NCBI GenBank assembly: GCA_021731045.1
Contig: JAKFYE010000002.1
Coordinates: 38,041 to 102,040 of the forward strand
DNA length: 64,000 nucleotides
Reading direction: 5' to 3'
DNA from: Bdellovibrionales bacterium
GTDB taxonomy: Bacteria > Bdellovibrionota > Bdellovibrionia > Bdellovibrionales > JAKFYE01
Shown piece after piece: positions 23,189 to 64,000 of the stretch. The notes under the pieces were generated by a model. The model was not told the DNA's origin. It did no database searches and was given only the letters and a program-made list of their open reading frames with translations. Position 1 is the stretch's first letter; the number at the start of each line of letters is the position of its first letter. A program made the position numbers and the translations under genes.

Positions 23189-23560
23189 AGTTCTAGTGCT
23201 GGGAAAACATGTGTAGTTTTTAGTTAGTTTTTTATCAAAGGCGGCATTCTCCTTTTCGCCACGAAATACATCTGCGGAATATCGTTTGGTTTTTCTATGT
23301 GAGAGATTAGACGAACTGGCGTGACCCTTTAATGGGTCTTTTAGCCAGTTCTGTGCCTGATGTTTGAAATTTATCTGTCGTAGTTATACTAGAGTTTTCT
23401 ATTACGGCCGACGTTAAGCGGGAAAAATATTTTACATTGAATTTGGCGTGGCGTCTTCAAGGGGGCGTTGGAGCCCCAACAGACGCTGCTGGGATTTTAC
23501 GGTAAAATATTTATTCGATGAGTATGCGTGTTTGGTGACGGAGGGTTAGAGAAGTGGGTT
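23189..23560 (+). ncRNA. Structured HNH-associated repeat element, copy A
   Basis: This non-coding stretch recurs at 63648-63900. Three paired features are visible. Stem 1: GAACTGGC (23313-23320) with GCCAGTTC (23344-23351), enclosing GACCC (23323-23327) with GGGTC (23334-23338). Stem 2: an 11-bp AT helix, 23425-23435 with 23502-23512. Nested inside it, GCGTC (23451-23455) pairs with GACGC (23482-23486). The 27 bases at 23456-23482 at the tip are identical in both copies, while the flanking stems vary in a paired manner. That pattern indicates a conserved fold. Orientation is taken from the HNH gene downstream. No known RNA family is claimed. Confidence 0.65.
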
Positions 23561-23622: not shown

Positions 23623-23640
23623 AGTTCCAGCGCTGGAACT
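23623..23640. repeat. Perfect 18-bp palindrome AGTTCCAGCGCTGGAACT
   Basis: An exact palindrome in the HNH leader. The identical 18-mer occurs at 49858-49875. The shorter core GTTCCAGCGCTGG also lies inside the HNH gene at 24641, and degenerate forms occur at 23190 and 63649. It could be a protein-binding or insertion site of this repeat family. Confidence 0.6.
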
Positions 23641-23919
23641 TTTTTGATATTCTGAGATTTGAGAAATTTGATTGGTTGAAATAATATTTTTATTTTCTTA
23701 GTAATTATTTGTTGACAGGCTTTTTCAATTTTTCAGAGAAGAATCTTGGTTTTCTTGCGAATGTCGTTAAAGTGTTTTTGTTGCTTCATAAATGGGTTAC
23801 GTTTGGTTTATTTTTACTATTTAAGATGCGTCTTTCATTCAATGTTTATTCTTTGTGGGGTTTATATTAGCACTTAATTTTTTGATTTTTAAACATGGTG
23901 TAGAGTCTTTTTGTTTTAG

Positions 23920-23968: not shown

Positions 23969-24922
23969 ATGAAAGATCAAACTGAGATTTTACGACTTAA
24001 GGAACTTTGTAATACCGAATTGTTTAAAGAAGCTAAAGATTCTGTTCAAGCTGAGACCAACGCCACACTTAGAGTTTTATATATTCTTAAAGAAATTGAA
24101 CGACGTAGGGCTTTTGCGGAGAAGAATTATCCAAGTCTTTATGAGTTTTGCATAGAGTACTTAGGTTACAAAAAGGGTGCTGCTTATCGACGTATCGCAG
24201 CGCTTAAAGCCCTAAAGGATCTTCCTGAGATTGAAGACAAGATTAAATCTGGCCGTCTTGATCTTATGACCTTAACTCAGGCGCAAAGTTATTTTTCGCA
24301 AAAACAAAGACATCATGAACCTTTAGCAAAAGAGCAGAAGCTTGAGATTTTAAATACTTTAGAAAATAAGTCCTCTCGTGAGAGTGAAGAGTTCTTTTTA
24401 AAACTTTCGCCTCAAGAGATTCCTCAAGAAAAATTAAGACCCATTAATTCGGAGACCTTTGAACTTAGGATTGCTCTTCCTAAAGTTGTTCAACAAAAGA
24501 TTGAAAAACTTAAAATGCTAATGGGCGCTAACAAATCTCATCTTGAAACTATTGACGCTCTAAACGAGGCATTAGATATCGCCATTCAAAGCTATGAGAA
24601 AAAATATAAAGCTTCCGAGTTAAAAGTATCGGCCACAAAAGTTCCAGCGCTGGGAAAAATATTAAAAACTCATTCTCAATATATTTCTGTTCATACTAAA
24701 CGGCGGATTTGGAGGAGAGATCAAGGGCAATGCTCATTTATTGATCCTTTAAATAATCACCAGTGTGGCTCTCGATTTAGGCTTGAGATTGACCACATTA
24801 CGCCCAAAGCTTTGGGTGGGACTAATGATTTCACAAATTTACGACTTGTCTGTCGCGCGCACAATCAATTTGCCGCCATCAAAGAGTTTGGGATGCAGAA
24901 AATGGAGAGGTTTATCAATTAA
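23969..24922 (+). CDS. HNH endonuclease family protein
   Basis: A 317-residue protein. The N-terminal 120 residues are helical, with the segment GYKKGAAYRRIAALKAL typical of a widespread HNH-endonuclease family found in delta-type proteobacteria. A charged linker follows, and the C-terminal HNH domain (about 245-310) has RRIWRRDQGQC, a second cysteine at HQCG, the DH pair in LEIDHITP, and NLRLVCRAHN. AAGGAG lies before the ATG. The domain looks intact, so a DNA-nicking or cutting activity is likely; the target is unknown. About 820 bases upstream are non-coding and structured, ending in a terminator. No split RuvC domain is present, so it is not IscB/HEARO type. Confidence 0.85.
   Translation: MKDQTEILRLKELCNTELFKEAKDSVQAETNATLRVLYILKEIERRRAFAEKNYPSLYEFCIEYLGYKKGAAYRRIAALKALKDLPEIEDKIKSGRLDLMTLTQAQSYFSQKQRHHEPLAKEQKLEILNTLENKSSRESEEFFLKLSPQEIPQEKLRPINSETFELRIALPKVVQQKIEKLKMLMGANKSHLETIDALNEALDIAIQSYEKKYKASELKVSATKVPALGKILKTHSQYISVHTKRRIWRRDQGQCSFIDPLNNHQCGSRFRLEIDHITPKALGGTNDFTNLRLVCRAHNQFAAIKEFGMQKMERFIN
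24640..24655 (+). repeat. TTCCAGCGCTGG motif inside the HNH coding sequence
   Basis: Positions 24641-24655 (GTTCCAGCGCTGGGA) repeat the core of the dispersed palindrome at 23623 and 49858, and most closely the degenerate forms at 23190 and 63649 (TTCTAGYGYTGGGAAA). It is read in frame as KVPALGK in the linker before the HNH domain. Confidence 0.5.
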
Positions 24923-25395: not shown

Positions 25396-25671
25396 TCAAA
25401 TCTCCCCTTGCTTTCGAAGTTGACTCCAATACCACCATTGTCTCTTTTTAGGGGGAAGCTTGGGATTTTTGGCCTGGGCAACTGCTGCTGAGAAAACATC
25501 CAGAGCACAAATGTCGTGTTGTCTGTTTGTCCTTTTGCAAAGTTGATCATACAGTTCTTGTGGCTTGCATCCGGCAAGTTGCCTCACTGTCTTAATCCCA
25601 AGTACTTCAAAATCTTTTAATGTTGCTAGGCCAACCCCCGTTAAATCTGACAGGTCTCTTGTATCTTTCAT
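25396..25671 (-). CDS. Helix-hairpin-helix (Cdd1-like 'pathogenicity locus') protein
   Basis: A 91-residue protein. The LTGVGLATLKDFEVLGIKTV segment is a helix-hairpin-helix motif, and the remainder (ELYDQLCKRTNRQHDICALDVF, then WWYWSQLRKQ) matches the small Cdd1 family sometimes annotated as 'pathogenicity locus'. The HhH motif suggests non-specific DNA binding; the cellular role is not known. It is first of a two-gene unit with the VOC protein. Confidence 0.78.
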   Translation of the reverse strand: MKDTRDLSDLTGVGLATLKDFEVLGIKTVRQLAGCKPQELYDQLCKRTNRQHDICALDVFSAAVAQAKNPKLPPKKRQWWYWSQLRKQGEI

Positions 25672-26038: not shown

Positions 26039-26202
26039 CTAAGCGGGTTCGCAAAAAACATTTCCTCTTTAGCTTGGTCTTTTGGTCCATCCCTATGTTG
26101 CTTCTCCTCAATTTAGACGCTGCTAAATCTTCGTCGTCGCGCCTTGGTCTGGACCAAAATCCGCGGCGCTAAAGAGGAAATGTTTTTTGCGAATCCGCTT
26201 AG
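26039..26202. mobile_element. 164-bp inverted-repeat element (MITE-like)
   Basis: Two 35-base arms, 26039-26073 and 26168-26202, are reverse complements with a single mismatch. Inside, TTTTGGTCCA (26080-26089) pairs exactly with TGGACCAAAA (26150-26159). The centre contains no gene. Such a long near-perfect hairpin in an intergenic region looks like a non-autonomous transposable element or a very stable RNA hairpin. No target-site duplication is obvious by eye. Confidence 0.55.
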
Positions 26203-26294: not shown

Positions 26295-27347
26295 TCACAG
26301 ATCCGGAGAAAATACCTGTTGCTCGTTTAGTGGCGTTGGGATTTTTAATCCTAAATGTTCGTAGGCTAAGCGTGAAGCGACTCGGCCGCGAGGAGTTTTT
26401 TGAATGAAGCCCTCTTGAATTAAAAAAGGTTCGTAGACGTCTTCGATGGTTTCTTTTTCTTCGCTAAGAGATGTCGCGATGGTTTCGATTCCGACGGGGC
26501 CGCCGTTAAATCTTTCGACGATCAAAGATAAAATTTTGCGATCCATTTCATCTAAACCTAATTGATCAACCTCAAGTTGATCGAGAGCGTAAGACGCGAT
26601 TTGTGCTGTGATGGTTCCGTCACCTTTGACTTGTGCGTAATCACGCACGCGCTTAAGCAACCGAATCGCGATGCGAGGCGTACCGCGCGAACGACGGGCG
26701 ATTTCTTCGGCGCCTTTTACATCGAGCTTCACTTTCATAATGGGAGCATCACGTTTTAAAATTTTTCCGAGATCTTCTTTGTTATAAAAATTCAAACGCT
26801 CGACAATTCCGAACCGATCACGAAAAGGTGCATTTAATAATCCTGCACGTGTGGTCGCGCCAACGAGAGTAAAGGGCACTAACGAAAACTTCATTGTGCG
26901 CGCGCCCAGTCCCTCACCCGTAATAATATCAATGTAAAAATCTTCCATCGCACTGTACAAATACTCTTCAATCACCGTACTCAGACGATGAATCTCATCG
27001 ATAAACAAAATTGAATTCGGAGTAAGCGACGTGAGAATCGCAGCTAAATCGCCTTTTTTATCAAGCGCAGGCCCAGAAGTTGTACGAATATCGACGCCCA
27101 AAGAGTGCGCCAAAATTCCGGCCAACGTGGTTTTGCCTAATCCGGGAGGACCAGAAAAAAGCGTGTGATCGAGGGGTTCGCCTCGCTTTTTTGCAGCTTG
27201 AACGAAGACTTTTAATTTTTCTTTAACGTTATCTTGTCCTGGAAATTCATCAAACGACATTGGGCGAAGCTGGGCCTCAAGAGGATCTTCTCCGAATTCC
27301 TCACCCGCGATAACTTCTGCATTGAGATCACGAATTAAATTTGTCAT
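26295..27347 (-). CDS. ruvB: Holliday junction helicase RuvB
   Basis: Hexameric AAA+ motor that drives branch migration with RuvA. 350 residues. Motifs: [19 protein letters not shown], Walker [12 protein letters not shown], Walker [10 protein letters not shown], sensor region [10 protein letters not shown] with arginine finger FRDRFG, and a C-terminal winged-helix domain ending [12 protein letters not shown]. It lies 21 bases after ruvA at the end of the ruvC-ruvA-ruvB operon. Confidence 0.97.
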
Positions 27348-37900: not shown

Positions 37901-38214
37901 TGAGCGATAAAAAAATAAATCCTGAGCACGGCGTTGTTGTCGAAGAGCGAATCAAAGTCAAAAAGCCCTCTCTCTATAAGGTCCTACTTTTAAATGATGA
38001 CTACACGCCTATGGATTTTGTGGTGCACATCCTAAAAGTGTATTTTCAAAAAGACGAAGTCGCGGCGCATGAGATTATGATTCAAGTCCACACTCAAGGT
38101 CGAGGTATCGCCGGTGTCTACTCATATGATGTGGCTGAGTCAAAAGTGGTACAGGTTATCGAGTACGCAAAAAAAAATGATTACCCTTTAAAAGCAGTTT
38201 TAGAGAAAGAATAG
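37900..38214 (+). CDS. clpS: ATP-dependent protease adaptor ClpS
   Basis: N-end-rule adaptor that delivers substrates to ClpAP. 104 residues; an unstructured N-terminus is followed by the core YKVLLLNDDYTPMDFVV, which holds the substrate pocket residues, then the HTQGRGIAGVY segment. The ATG shares one base with the Omp85 stop (TAATG). clpA follows after 111 bases, the usual pairing. Confidence 0.96.
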   Translation: MSDKKINPEHGVVVEERIKVKKPSLYKVLLLNDDYTPMDFVVHILKVYFQKDEVAAHEIMIQVHTQGRGIAGVYSYDVAESKVVQVIEYAKKNDYPLKAVLEKE

Positions 38215-48655: not shown

Positions 48656-48696
48656 TATGGGCGTCACTCTACTTTTTGTTCCGAAATGCGTCTGAA
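48656..48696. repeat. 41-bp repeat, copy 1
   Basis: This stretch is 36 of 41 identical to 51521-51561. In the reverse direction it reads as the end of an open frame (FRRISEQKVE then stop), and the other copy reads FRCTSERKVE then stop. The shared frame and stop codon suggest both are 3' ends of a common gene, now remnants. Confidence 0.55.
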
Positions 48697-48882
48697 CGTT
48701 GGCTTGATAGCATGATAGTTTGTTCGATAATAGGCAGGTGGTGTCACTGGAGTTTTAGGTTTGTTGTGGTGTTTGACATAAATGAGATGATAAAATATCG
48801 AGAGGGTAAGTTCCAGCCGCTGAGAGTTTTTTTGCCACTTGGGATTTAAATAAGCAAAAGGTACGGGCAGGGCTAAGGACAC
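48664..48882 (-). pseudogene. Open frame ending in a repeated 3' segment, probable remnant
   Basis: A 72-residue frame from GTG at 48882 overlaps the end of the HEISH gene by 10 bases. It contains the GCAAAAGGTACGG motif in its 5' part and a 3' end repeated at 51521-51561. The low-complexity basic composition and repeated segments suggest a fragment of a mobile or multicopy gene rather than a working protein. Confidence 0.3.
48854..48866 (+). repeat. GCAAAAGGTACGG motif, copy 3
   Basis: An exact copy of the 13-mer. A short matching arm (ACCTT, 48881-48885) gives a weak hairpin just downstream of the HEISH gene's stop on the minus strand. Confidence 0.4.
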
Positions 48883-49712
48883 CTTATATTTAATGTGTTC
48901 TTGAATGAGTTTATCCGGGTGTAGGCAATTCCACCAACAGCATTTTCGACATCGTTAGGAAAAGACGTCCAACTCCTGAGCCACGTGATAACGTCACATT
49001 GATTTTCGACCATTAAATTATCCAAAATAACTTTTGCTATACTATCAATCTCAGCGTGTCTCGATGTTTCTTCTAGAATGGATTCCCGCAAAAGTTTATT
49101 TTTATCAGCTCCTTCCGTAAGACTAAACAGTGATTGAACAAACGCCTCATTATGCAGGCGAACAAGAAAGTAACTTTTTTGTTCATTAGGACTAAGGTGT
49201 CTAGTGGAATTTATGATTTCAGATTCATAAACGTAGTGTGAAATTTCATGCGCTAATACAAACTCTATGAGCGAAATTGGATTTCTGTAATGGGCATCTT
49301 TCAAAATCGAGTGGATCCATTTGGGATCGATAAAAACACTAAGATTTCCTACTTCAATATTTGGCTCGCACCCATCACAGGATAACAACTTTAAAACGTC
49401 TGGCTTTCCAAAAACGAACCTTTGAATTCTTTCAAACTTCGATTTAATAAAAGCGGGAACAGGCGTTTGTGAGAGGCGATTGTTTGAAGAATAAACATTG
49501 CCGTCTGGAAAGAGTGAAGGAAAGGACCGCTGACTCCTTAATCGTGCTAAAGACTTCTCGATCTTTTGAACATCAAAACTAATCTCTGTTGTGTACAGAT
49601 CGTCCCGGTGAGTGACATTTTTTGTTATCTGCGCCTCTGCCGGCAGAGACAAAACGCTCCCTAGAGCAAATAAAACACAGCCCAACACACACGTAAAGCT
49701 GAAGGTTTTCAT
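48873..49712 (-). CDS. Secreted putative M48-like metalloprotease
   Basis: A 279-residue exported protein from the ATG at 49712 (GAGGAACC upstream; seven extra codons are open before it). The signal peptide ends near AEAQ. FVLAHEISHYVYE (HExxH) about residue 165 is a zinc-binding site. About 60 residues later SRHAEIDSIAK resembles the ExxxD third-ligand region of M48 peptidases. A pair of cysteines in LLSCDGC and a C-terminal NIRCP are present. The overall fold is unassigned, so the protease call is tentative. Confidence 0.6.
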   Translation of the reverse strand: MKTFSFTCVLGCVLFALGSVLSLPAEAQITKNVTHRDDLYTTEISFDVQKIEKSLARLRSQRSFPSLFPDGNVYSSNNRLSQTPVPAFIKSKFERIQRFVFGKPDVLKLLSCDGCEPNIEVGNLSVFIDPKWIHSILKDAHYRNPISLIEFVLAHEISHYVYESEIINSTRHLSPNEQKSYFLVRLHNEAFVQSLFSLTEGADKNKLLRESILEETSRHAEIDSIAKVILDNLMVENQCDVITWLRSWTSFPNDVENAVGGIAYTRINSFKNTLNIRCP

Positions 49713-49819
49713 TGGTTCCTCATATCTAGTCATCTCAGAAATTTAAAGCAATATTCAGACCCCAGCCCCACCTCGCGCTCGCAATCCAAGATTGGGCCGC
49801 AAAATCAGTAAGGATATCA

Positions 49820-49857: not shown

Positions 49858-49875
49858 AGTTCCAGCGCTGGAACT
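49858..49875. repeat. Perfect 18-bp palindrome AGTTCCAGCGCTGGAACT, second copy
   Basis: Identical to 23623-23640 in the HNH leader, 26 kb away. It lies 22 bases beyond the acetyltransferase stop. No HNH gene is nearby, so this is a solitary copy. Confidence 0.6.
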
Positions 49876-49897: not shown

Positions 49898-50410
49898 TCA
49901 AATTCTCATTTCAAACAATAGGAATGTCATTTGCCACGGAGAATAAAACGATTCTCCGATACAATCAAAGCCACAACTTTGGTAAAAATTTGGTAAAAAT
50001 GGATTTGTCTTATCACAGCATAACCGAAGCACGGTTGCGCCTTTTTGCTGAGCATATTCTTTTGCCCAGCTTATAATTTTCGATCCCAAATTTCGTCCAG
50101 AATACTCTCTTGAAATCGCCAACCGATTAAGATGAATTGCAGTTTGCTTGTCATCTGGCCATATTTCGCTTTTTGCGTGAGACAAAGAAATTGTACCAAT
50201 GATTTTTTGAGAATTATCGAGGATAACGAAAAGCTCGCCATCGGATACTTCGGCTTGCAATCTGGAGAGTGGAAAGTTCTCGCTCCATTGTTTTATGCCT
50301 TTTGTTTTTAACCACTGTGCTGTTTCGCGAATAATGTTAGCGGCCTGATCTAGCTGGTCGGCATTGGCTAGTTGAAGTTTCAGAGGACAAGGGATATCGC
50401 TATTTTTCAT
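49898..50410 (-). CDS. GNAT family N-acetyltransferase
   Basis: A 170-residue protein from the ATG at 50410 (a TTG start at 50440 would add ten residues). The GNAT core is visible: an N-terminal helix pair, a beta hairpin (FVILDNSQKIIGTISL), the acetyl-CoA pyrophosphate loop in SREYSGRNLGSKIISWA (R/QxxGxG/A-like), and LRLCCDKTNPFLPNFYQSCGF. The substrate is unknown. Monocistronic. Confidence 0.85.
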   Translation of the reverse strand: MKNSDIPCPLKLQLANADQLDQAANIIRETAQWLKTKGIKQWSENFPLSRLQAEVSDGELFVILDNSQKIIGTISLSHAKSEIWPDDKQTAIHLNRLAISREYSGRNLGSKIISWAKEYAQQKGATVLRLCCDKTNPFLPNFYQSCGFDCIGESFYSPWQMTFLLFEMRI

Positions 50411-50512
50411 AACTCGCAAATAGCACTTGAAAGAAACCAAGTCAGCTTATTTTGCATTCTTGGGATATGGACTTTTTTTTAAAAAATTATTACTGTAGCT
50501 CGGGGGCGCGAC

Positions 50513-51520: not shown

Positions 51521-51561
51521 TATGGACGTCACTCTACTTTTCGTTCCGAAGTGCATCTGAA
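51521..51561. repeat. 41-bp repeat, copy 2
   Basis: Second copy of the segment at 48656-48696, five differences. As in copy 1, the reverse frame reads into KVE and a stop. A GGTACGG hairpin follows 9 bases downstream here, while at copy 1 the same motif is about 160 bases away. Confidence 0.55.
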
Positions 51562-51569
51562 TGGAATAA

Positions 51570-51596
51570 ACAAAAGGTACGGACACATCCTTTTGT
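51570..51596. terminator. CAAAAGGTACGG hairpin between convergent genes
   Basis: ACAAAAGG (51570-51577) and CCTTTTGT (51589-51596) form an 8-bp stem with an 11-nt loop that includes the TACGG of the dispersed motif. It lies between two convergent stops, so a terminator role is likely. Confidence 0.6.
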
Positions 51597-51604
51597 TACT
51601 CTGA

Positions 51605-63613: not shown

Positions 63614-63629
63614 CCTGTCGCGCGACAGG
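63614..63629. repeat. CCTGTCGCGCGACAGG palindrome, first of two
   Basis: A perfect 16-bp palindrome. Its inner 14 bases recur exactly at 63944-63957, 329 bases on. The related ATCTGTCG sequence is in the HNH-side element at 23373. It may be part of the repeat family's structure or a protein-binding site. Confidence 0.5.
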
Positions 63630-63647: not shown

Positions 63648-63900
63648 GTTCTAGCGTTGGGAAAGTTTTTTTGTCGAGAGTTTCTATGTGAAAAATTGGC
63701 GGACGGGCGTGGCCCTTAAATGGGCCCTTGAGACCGTTCCGTTTGGGCCGAATTTGATGTGGGGAAAAATATTTTAATTAGGTTGGTCGGGGCGGCTTCA
63801 AGGGGGCGTTGGAGCCCCAACAGCCGCCGCTGGGTTTTTAGGTAAAATATTTTTTGGGTCAGTTGTTTCGTGTTTTTGGTGACGATGGGTTAGAGAGAGG
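63648..63900 (+). ncRNA. Structured HNH-associated repeat element, copy B
   Basis: Corresponds to copy A at 23189-23560. Stem 1 inner pair GGCCC (63711-63715) with GGGCC (63722-63726), the counterpart of GACCC/GGGTC in copy A. Stem 2: the 12-bp AT helix 63765-63776 with 63843-63854. Inner stem: GGCGGC (63791-63796) with GCCGCC (63823-63828), where copy A has GCGTC/GACGC. The 27-base tip 63797-63823 is identical to copy A, and both are followed by GTGACGRxGGGTTAGAGA. No HNH gene lies to the right within the window. Confidence 0.65.
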
Positions 63901-63943: not shown

Positions 63944-64000
63944 CTGTCGCGCGACAGGAGAATTTTTAAGTGGAAGATTGGCGGACGGGCGTGGCCCTTA
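63944..64000 (+). repeat. Start of a third repeat copy, cut by the window edge
   Basis: The 14-bp palindrome core is followed by a segment at 63977-64000 identical to 63695-63718 (24 bases), 282 bases later. So another copy of the element begins here in tandem and continues past the edge. Confidence 0.6.

Follow-up and report, generated by a model that had tools for sequence, protein, structure and literature searches.

The non-coding repeat described here is a real folded unit with compensatory base changes, is present in many copies in its genome, and is linked to HNH genes. We lean towards the view that it serves as terminal substrate in a mobile element whose HNH protein, with a predicted ParB/Noc-type DNA-binding part, would read the palindromes that bound the unit and cut the DNA, with repair copying the unit. 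More tentatively, it may represent a new class of self-spreading elements, which would combine a ParB/Noc-type reader fused to an HNH domain, a parS-like site found both in the flanks and in the gene between the two domains, a site and a recognition helix that change together by family, and hairpin units as mobile ends.

A folded repeat with many copies in one genome

The window, that is, the whole stretch of 64,000 nucleotides that was analyzed (positions 38041 to 102040 of contig C8 in genome G000, an assembly of 2.58 Mb in 47 contigs), holds two copies of the unit, A and B (Table 1). They share an 87-nt direct repeat with 78% identity and an identical core, which the preliminary description had given as 27 bases and which we measured as a 28-mer (23455-23482 in copy A and 63796-63823 in copy B). 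A BLAST search of the same genome with 161 nt of copy A returned 48 matches at an E value of ≤10, and the 37 of these with E ≤ 2.1e-10 rule out chance. Both copies of the original two-copy picture are real, but the repeat is in fact multicopy, with 37 places in the genome, and copy B marks a contig end: C8 stops with the window, so that the sequence beyond copy B is unassembled. An element lies within 2 kb of 19 of the 94 contig ends. Repeats at 48656 and 51521 were rejected as extra copies, as they have only 41 nt in common with the unit and no match to our covariance model of it, R1. They belong to a separate 41-nt repeat family (48656-48696, 51521-51561, and 23236-23276, the last inside copy A), whose members are 66-90% identical.

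Table 1. Repeat units, palindromes, and associated features in the window
Feature	Position	Strand	Basis or remark
Core of copy A: AT helix, GCGTC/GACGC stem, GGGGC/GCCCC stem-loop, 3' hairpin	23414..23552	+	R1, 117.5 bits, E 2e-20; copy A is part of the model
Core of copy B	63756..63896	+	R1, 155.9 bits, E 1e-27; copy B is part of the model
First hairpin of copy A: ACTGGC/GCCAGT outside GACCC/GGGTC	23315..23349	+	Folding and pair counts
First hairpin of copy B: GGCCC/GGGCC	63704..63735	+	Sequence and pair counts
Start of a further unit, truncated by the window and contig end	63958..64000	+	Direct repeat D3, 88%
Outer palindrome TTCTAGTGCTGGGA, at the unit start in copy A	23191..23204	+	Count of pattern TTCYAGYGCTRGRA
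Inner palindrome TTCCAGCGCTGGAA, between unit and HNH gene	23625..23638	.	Repeat and pattern count
In-gene palindrome TTCCAGCGCTGGGA, codon 225	24642..24655	+	Within low-confidence linker 223-234, ahead of the HNH domain (RDQGQC at 250)
Palindrome CTGTCGCGCGACAG, starts unit B	63615..63628	.	Set of 63 genome sites; reversed-pattern control, 0
Palindrome CTGTCGCGCGACAG, ends unit B	63944..63957	.	Same 63-site set; control, 0
TTGACA promoter-like motif, likely -35, between unit and gene	23712..23717	+	Sequence; position of TTGACG conserved in relatives
317-aa HNH gene	23969..24922	+	Predicted ParB/Noc-type DNA-binding domain (~residues 27-149), low-confidence linker, HNH domain

The paired changes that had first drawn attention to the repeat hold up in the sequence. 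The stem closing the core reads GCGTC/GACGC in copy A (stem-loop at 23451-23486) and GCGGC/GCCGC in copy B (63792-63827), the surrounding AT helix is kept, as had been described, and a second paired change, GACCC/GGGTC against GGCCC/GGGCC, is located in the first hairpin. Folding z-scores were -4.24 for positions 23189-23560 and -5.32 for the full unit on contig C11. For the alignment, 38 units were extracted and 35 aligned after exclusion of three partial ones; across 34 distinct copies, 98.6% of the cells in the core and AT helix are paired. Four of these pairs are altered on both sides (zero to one in controls with slid partners), a count inflated by kinship among the copies, and 9 of the 11 AT-helix pairs are uninformative, being invariant or deviating only by an unpaired cell. 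The first hairpin was followed in 25 units (20 distinct), chosen by pattern and by eye from 83 pattern hits, the others being mostly the core hairpin, or either hairpin on the opposite strand. It is 91% paired in the distinct copies, compared with 11-54.5% in slid controls. Five of its pairs carry changes on both sides (zero to two when slid), which 52 of 500 shuffles also reach, whereas none of the 500 matches its 26 double-changed cells or its covariation score. The double changes reflect few events, mainly two hairpin types, in related copies.

Outside its own genome, the unit is hardly found. Rfam gave no match at the gathering threshold in the window, the matches at E ≤ 5 in the element regions of C11 and the window looked like chance, and the HEARO covariance model matched neither at these settings; the earlier statement that the core belongs to no described family is thus borne out in the Rfam comparison. 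The covariance-model search that the preliminary description had proposed yielded no homologues: at E ≤ 0.01, R1 matched none of the class's 142 other genomes, leaving its own genome as the sole match among 143. Run at E ≤ 0.1 over the order (140 genomes), it found the own genome and one 80-nt stretch (in G109, E 0.016) that lacks the core stem-loop; in both scans, stricter filters were used, at the cost of some weak matches. BLAST over 98 genomes recovered the own genome and matches of 21-28 nt in four others. A pattern scan of GTDB contigs returned two stretches, with about two expected by chance and neither matched by R1, the same scan of viral contigs returned none, and plasmids and phages gave no match, although these collections may leave out records of the own genome. 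We therefore rejected the idea of a widespread RNA, R1 being restricted to its own genome apart from the weak stretch in G109. One homologue of the window's HNH protein, P0122, with 81% identity, is encoded on a 285-kb NCBI contig.

Units and palindromes around the HNH genes

The proposed link between the element and HNH genes was borne out, except that the unit accompanies two HNH families rather than one. Besides the 317-aa protein of the window, the genome encodes a 273-aa family, found full-length at 6 places and in part at another 5; its reference copy and the window's protein share 23% identity. Around the 273-aa genes the arrangement is symmetric: in C11, C29, and C16, where both sides are assembled, the units, and with them the hairpins, stand in tandem and point the same way as the gene on its upstream side and are reversed on its downstream side, and the downstream units are inverted in all 10 HNH places whose downstream side is visible. 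Copy A precedes the 317-aa gene, on whose far side there is no inverted counterpart, and inverted flanks were not upheld as a general rule of the HNH family. Looser analogues exist in relatives, namely, conserved hairpin blocks upstream of the HNH copies of G076 (nine aligned) and hairpin repeats, both inverted and in tandem, that surround three HNH copies in G020. An unsystematic look at the C11 and C29 sequences revealed neither a target-site duplication nor an empty site.

Two further kinds of repeat lie apart from the unit. Three AAAAGGTGCC..CACCTTTTG hairpins stand in tandem beside the C11 element (L043:5790-5865); they are REP-like and separate from the unit, with related forms elsewhere, including the window near 51570-51600. 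A 35-nt inverted repeat occupies 26039-26073 and 26168-26202, between the ORFs at 25396-25671 and 26295-27347; its arms are 97% complementary and 94 nt apart.

In the 273-aa elements, the palindrome CTGTCGYRCGACAG stands at the borders of the units. It has 63 genomic sites (0 for the reversed pattern used as a control), none farther than 400 nt from a unit or an HNH match. It also lies inside the 273-aa gene, directly ahead of the HNH motif, in all 10 copies in which this stretch is covered. For the window's HNH gene, the corresponding pattern TTCYAGYGCTRGRA has five forward sites in the genome, three of them in or beside the element, a count that is weak alone given the control (two forward and one reverse). 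A solo perfect palindrome TTCCAGCGCTGGAA, the site of the window's HNH, is found at 49860-49873, between the ORFs at 48873-49733 and 49898-50440.

The C16 copy bears a trace of rearrangement at these sites. It equals C11 up to and through the in-gene palindrome and resumes at the second downstream palindrome, so that 362 bp of C11 are missing from it, HNH domain included, with the palindrome as the junction. Breaks or recombination have thus happened at the palindromes; the deletion does not identify the protein responsible.

Different HNH families have different palindromes: in relatives, the sequences shared by gene and flank are of three types in G076 and of one type each in G084, G057, G082, G038, and G086. 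An in-gene palindrome matching the gene's own flanks was found at 22 of 68 distinct loci (8 genomes; 16 of the 22 loci come from two genomes, 10 from G076 and 6 from the own genome), compared with 4 of 680 pairings with flanks of other genomes. For exact matches of perfect palindromes the counts were 11 of 68 and 0 of 680, and none of 142 other long ORFs from the fetched DNA and the window shared a palindrome with its flanks, in a comparison that located the HNH motif by a pattern including two loose variants. The remaining 46 loci have no gene-flank match; some, such as G086 L169 and G047 L110, have related palindromes around the gene, just past its aligned end and upstream. The match at L134, at gene nucleotide 275, is outside the linker and may be due to chance. 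Over 52 loci, with related copies counted, perfect 12-bp palindromes are most frequent 70-80% of the way along the gene (14) and at 200-300 nt upstream of it (12). Four G076 copies (L137, L138, L139, and L141) contain a second in-gene palindrome near nucleotide 451, after the ParB-like domain, where it encodes ALRAQK.

The HNH proteins and the systems they resemble

Both HNH proteins are predicted to contain the DNA-binding fold of ParB/Noc, a helix-turn-helix domain recognized in the predicted structures by an aligner that carries a warning on helical domains. The palindromes supply candidate sites for this predicted domain, and these two leads, the palindromes and the ParB-like domain, lay outside the stretch covered by the preliminary description. 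The alignment begins at residue 22 or 27 of the HNH proteins, corresponding to ParB/Noc residues from about 116-141 on, and the N-terminal CTPase fold is absent from both proteins, with no such domain in Pfam either. The likeness to ParB-parS and Noc-NBS extends from the predicted fold to palindromic sites of 14-16 bp clustered around the gene and to recognition residues that vary with the site (PMC7383237). In contrast to these systems, the HNH proteins leave no room for a CTPase domain before the DNA-binding domain, carry a C-terminal HNH nuclease domain, and belong to a multicopy element.

Fusions of ParB-type proteins with HNH have been reported in a survey, whose relevant part describes the CTPase fold as the fused portion (PMC12704722), whereas here it is the helix-turn-helix part that is fused, together with site palindromes and folded repeats. 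Our literature search returned no account of ParB-type helix-turn-helix-HNH fusions with cognate palindromes, which is weak evidence of novelty in a search that mostly did not cover subscription journals. The REP13E12 or DUF222-HNH repeats likewise comprise repeated HNH genes, and two distant homologues of the window's HNH protein, P0209 and P0202, match DUF222 above the cut-off; at E ≤ 0.1, Pfam finds no DUF222 in the window's HNH or the 273-aa HNH, and the part of PMC10589994 considered here mentions neither folded units nor cognate palindromes.

Explanations for the repeat

If the repeat is a terminal substrate, the HNH protein would use its predicted ParB/Noc-type domain to bind the 14-bp palindromes that surround the unit and would nick or cut there, with the hairpins serving as single-strand or cruciform DNA where the cut falls; repair after cutting would copy the unit and so produce the tandem arrays.

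Among the alternatives, the palindromes could be operators through which a ParB-like HNH protein, bound upstream of and within its own gene, loops the DNA and represses that gene, the units being passive terminal repeats spread by ordinary recombination. The palindromes are indeed paired, one in the gene and one upstream (at ~230-480 nt in most listed loci), and flank the promoter-like motif. Yet many of the 63 sites in the genome bound non-coding units rather than promoters, and the HNH domain would be superfluous, which makes this explanation rather unlikely.

We regard as slightly less probable still that the unit is a structured RNA, transcribed from the + strand to guide or regulate the HNH protein in the manner of the HEARO/omega RNA upstream of IscB. 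Strong folding of the + strand, the compensatory stems, and the location upstream of an HNH gene fit such an RNA; a folded non-coding element ahead of an HNH gene is also a feature of HEARO and IscB OMEGA systems in the accounts considered. Wobble counts (G.T versus A.C) favor the + strand at 28:2 in the core, where the structure was itself picked on that strand and the count is thus biased, whereas the first hairpin shows no bias (7:6). IscB HNH domains are among the best sequence matches of the HNH domain, but the resemblance is confined to this C-terminal part (27.3 and 29.3 bits with model NF040563, against a cut-off of 175), for which reason a guide-RNA reading of the protein was rejected, and the predicted N-terminal domain resembles readers of DNA palindromes. 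The absence of an Rfam match and of a full-length IscB match and the inverted downstream copies further separate the element from those systems. Moreover, the folded units sit upstream of the promoter-like motif, whose counterpart in relatives, TTGACG, occurs at 36 of 61 loci in the 420 nt before the aligned start, often near -215, and in 3 of 59 distal stretches. Inverted downstream copies and a unit upstream of the promoter-like motif favor DNA ends over a leader RNA, and the leader or guide role suggested in the preliminary description is not supported. The unit may have an RNA role, although we hold the DNA-end reading to be likelier.

Least probable is that the units are REP/BIME-like repeats mobilized by an unrelated transposase with the HNH genes as passengers: the hairpins are paired (one being weakly like the reverse strand of the other; R1 hit, E 0.27) and the arrays tandem and inverted, but an HNH gene is present in each internal array (C11, C29, and C16) and at copy A, leaving aside contig-end arrays and a 36-nt fragment on C35, and the palindrome type tracks the HNH family. 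REP/BIME with RAYT, as far as the accounts considered go, share with the element the paired hairpins in opposite orientation on either side of a nuclease-type gene, and differ in having units of 20-40 bp and a tyrosine transposase instead of units of ~330-380 nt and an HNH protein; Pfam detects no Y1 transposase domain in the array gene, which matches HNH families.

Should the terminal-substrate reading be correct, a DNA reader from chromosome segregation would have been recruited to direct a mobile nuclease to its targets, and every family would show in its own gene the site that it recognizes. This would provide a natural, sequence-readable set of ParB-type domain/site pairs in which switches of DNA-binding specificity are directly testable. 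It would also offer a candidate function for HNH genes that homologue listings give only generic names and that are common in the order (69 of 138 genomes at E ≤ 1e-5).

In G011, four HNH elements of ~1.2 kb (L172-L175) are 87-90% identical and have unlike flanks, suggesting that the HNH family is mobile in relatives too.
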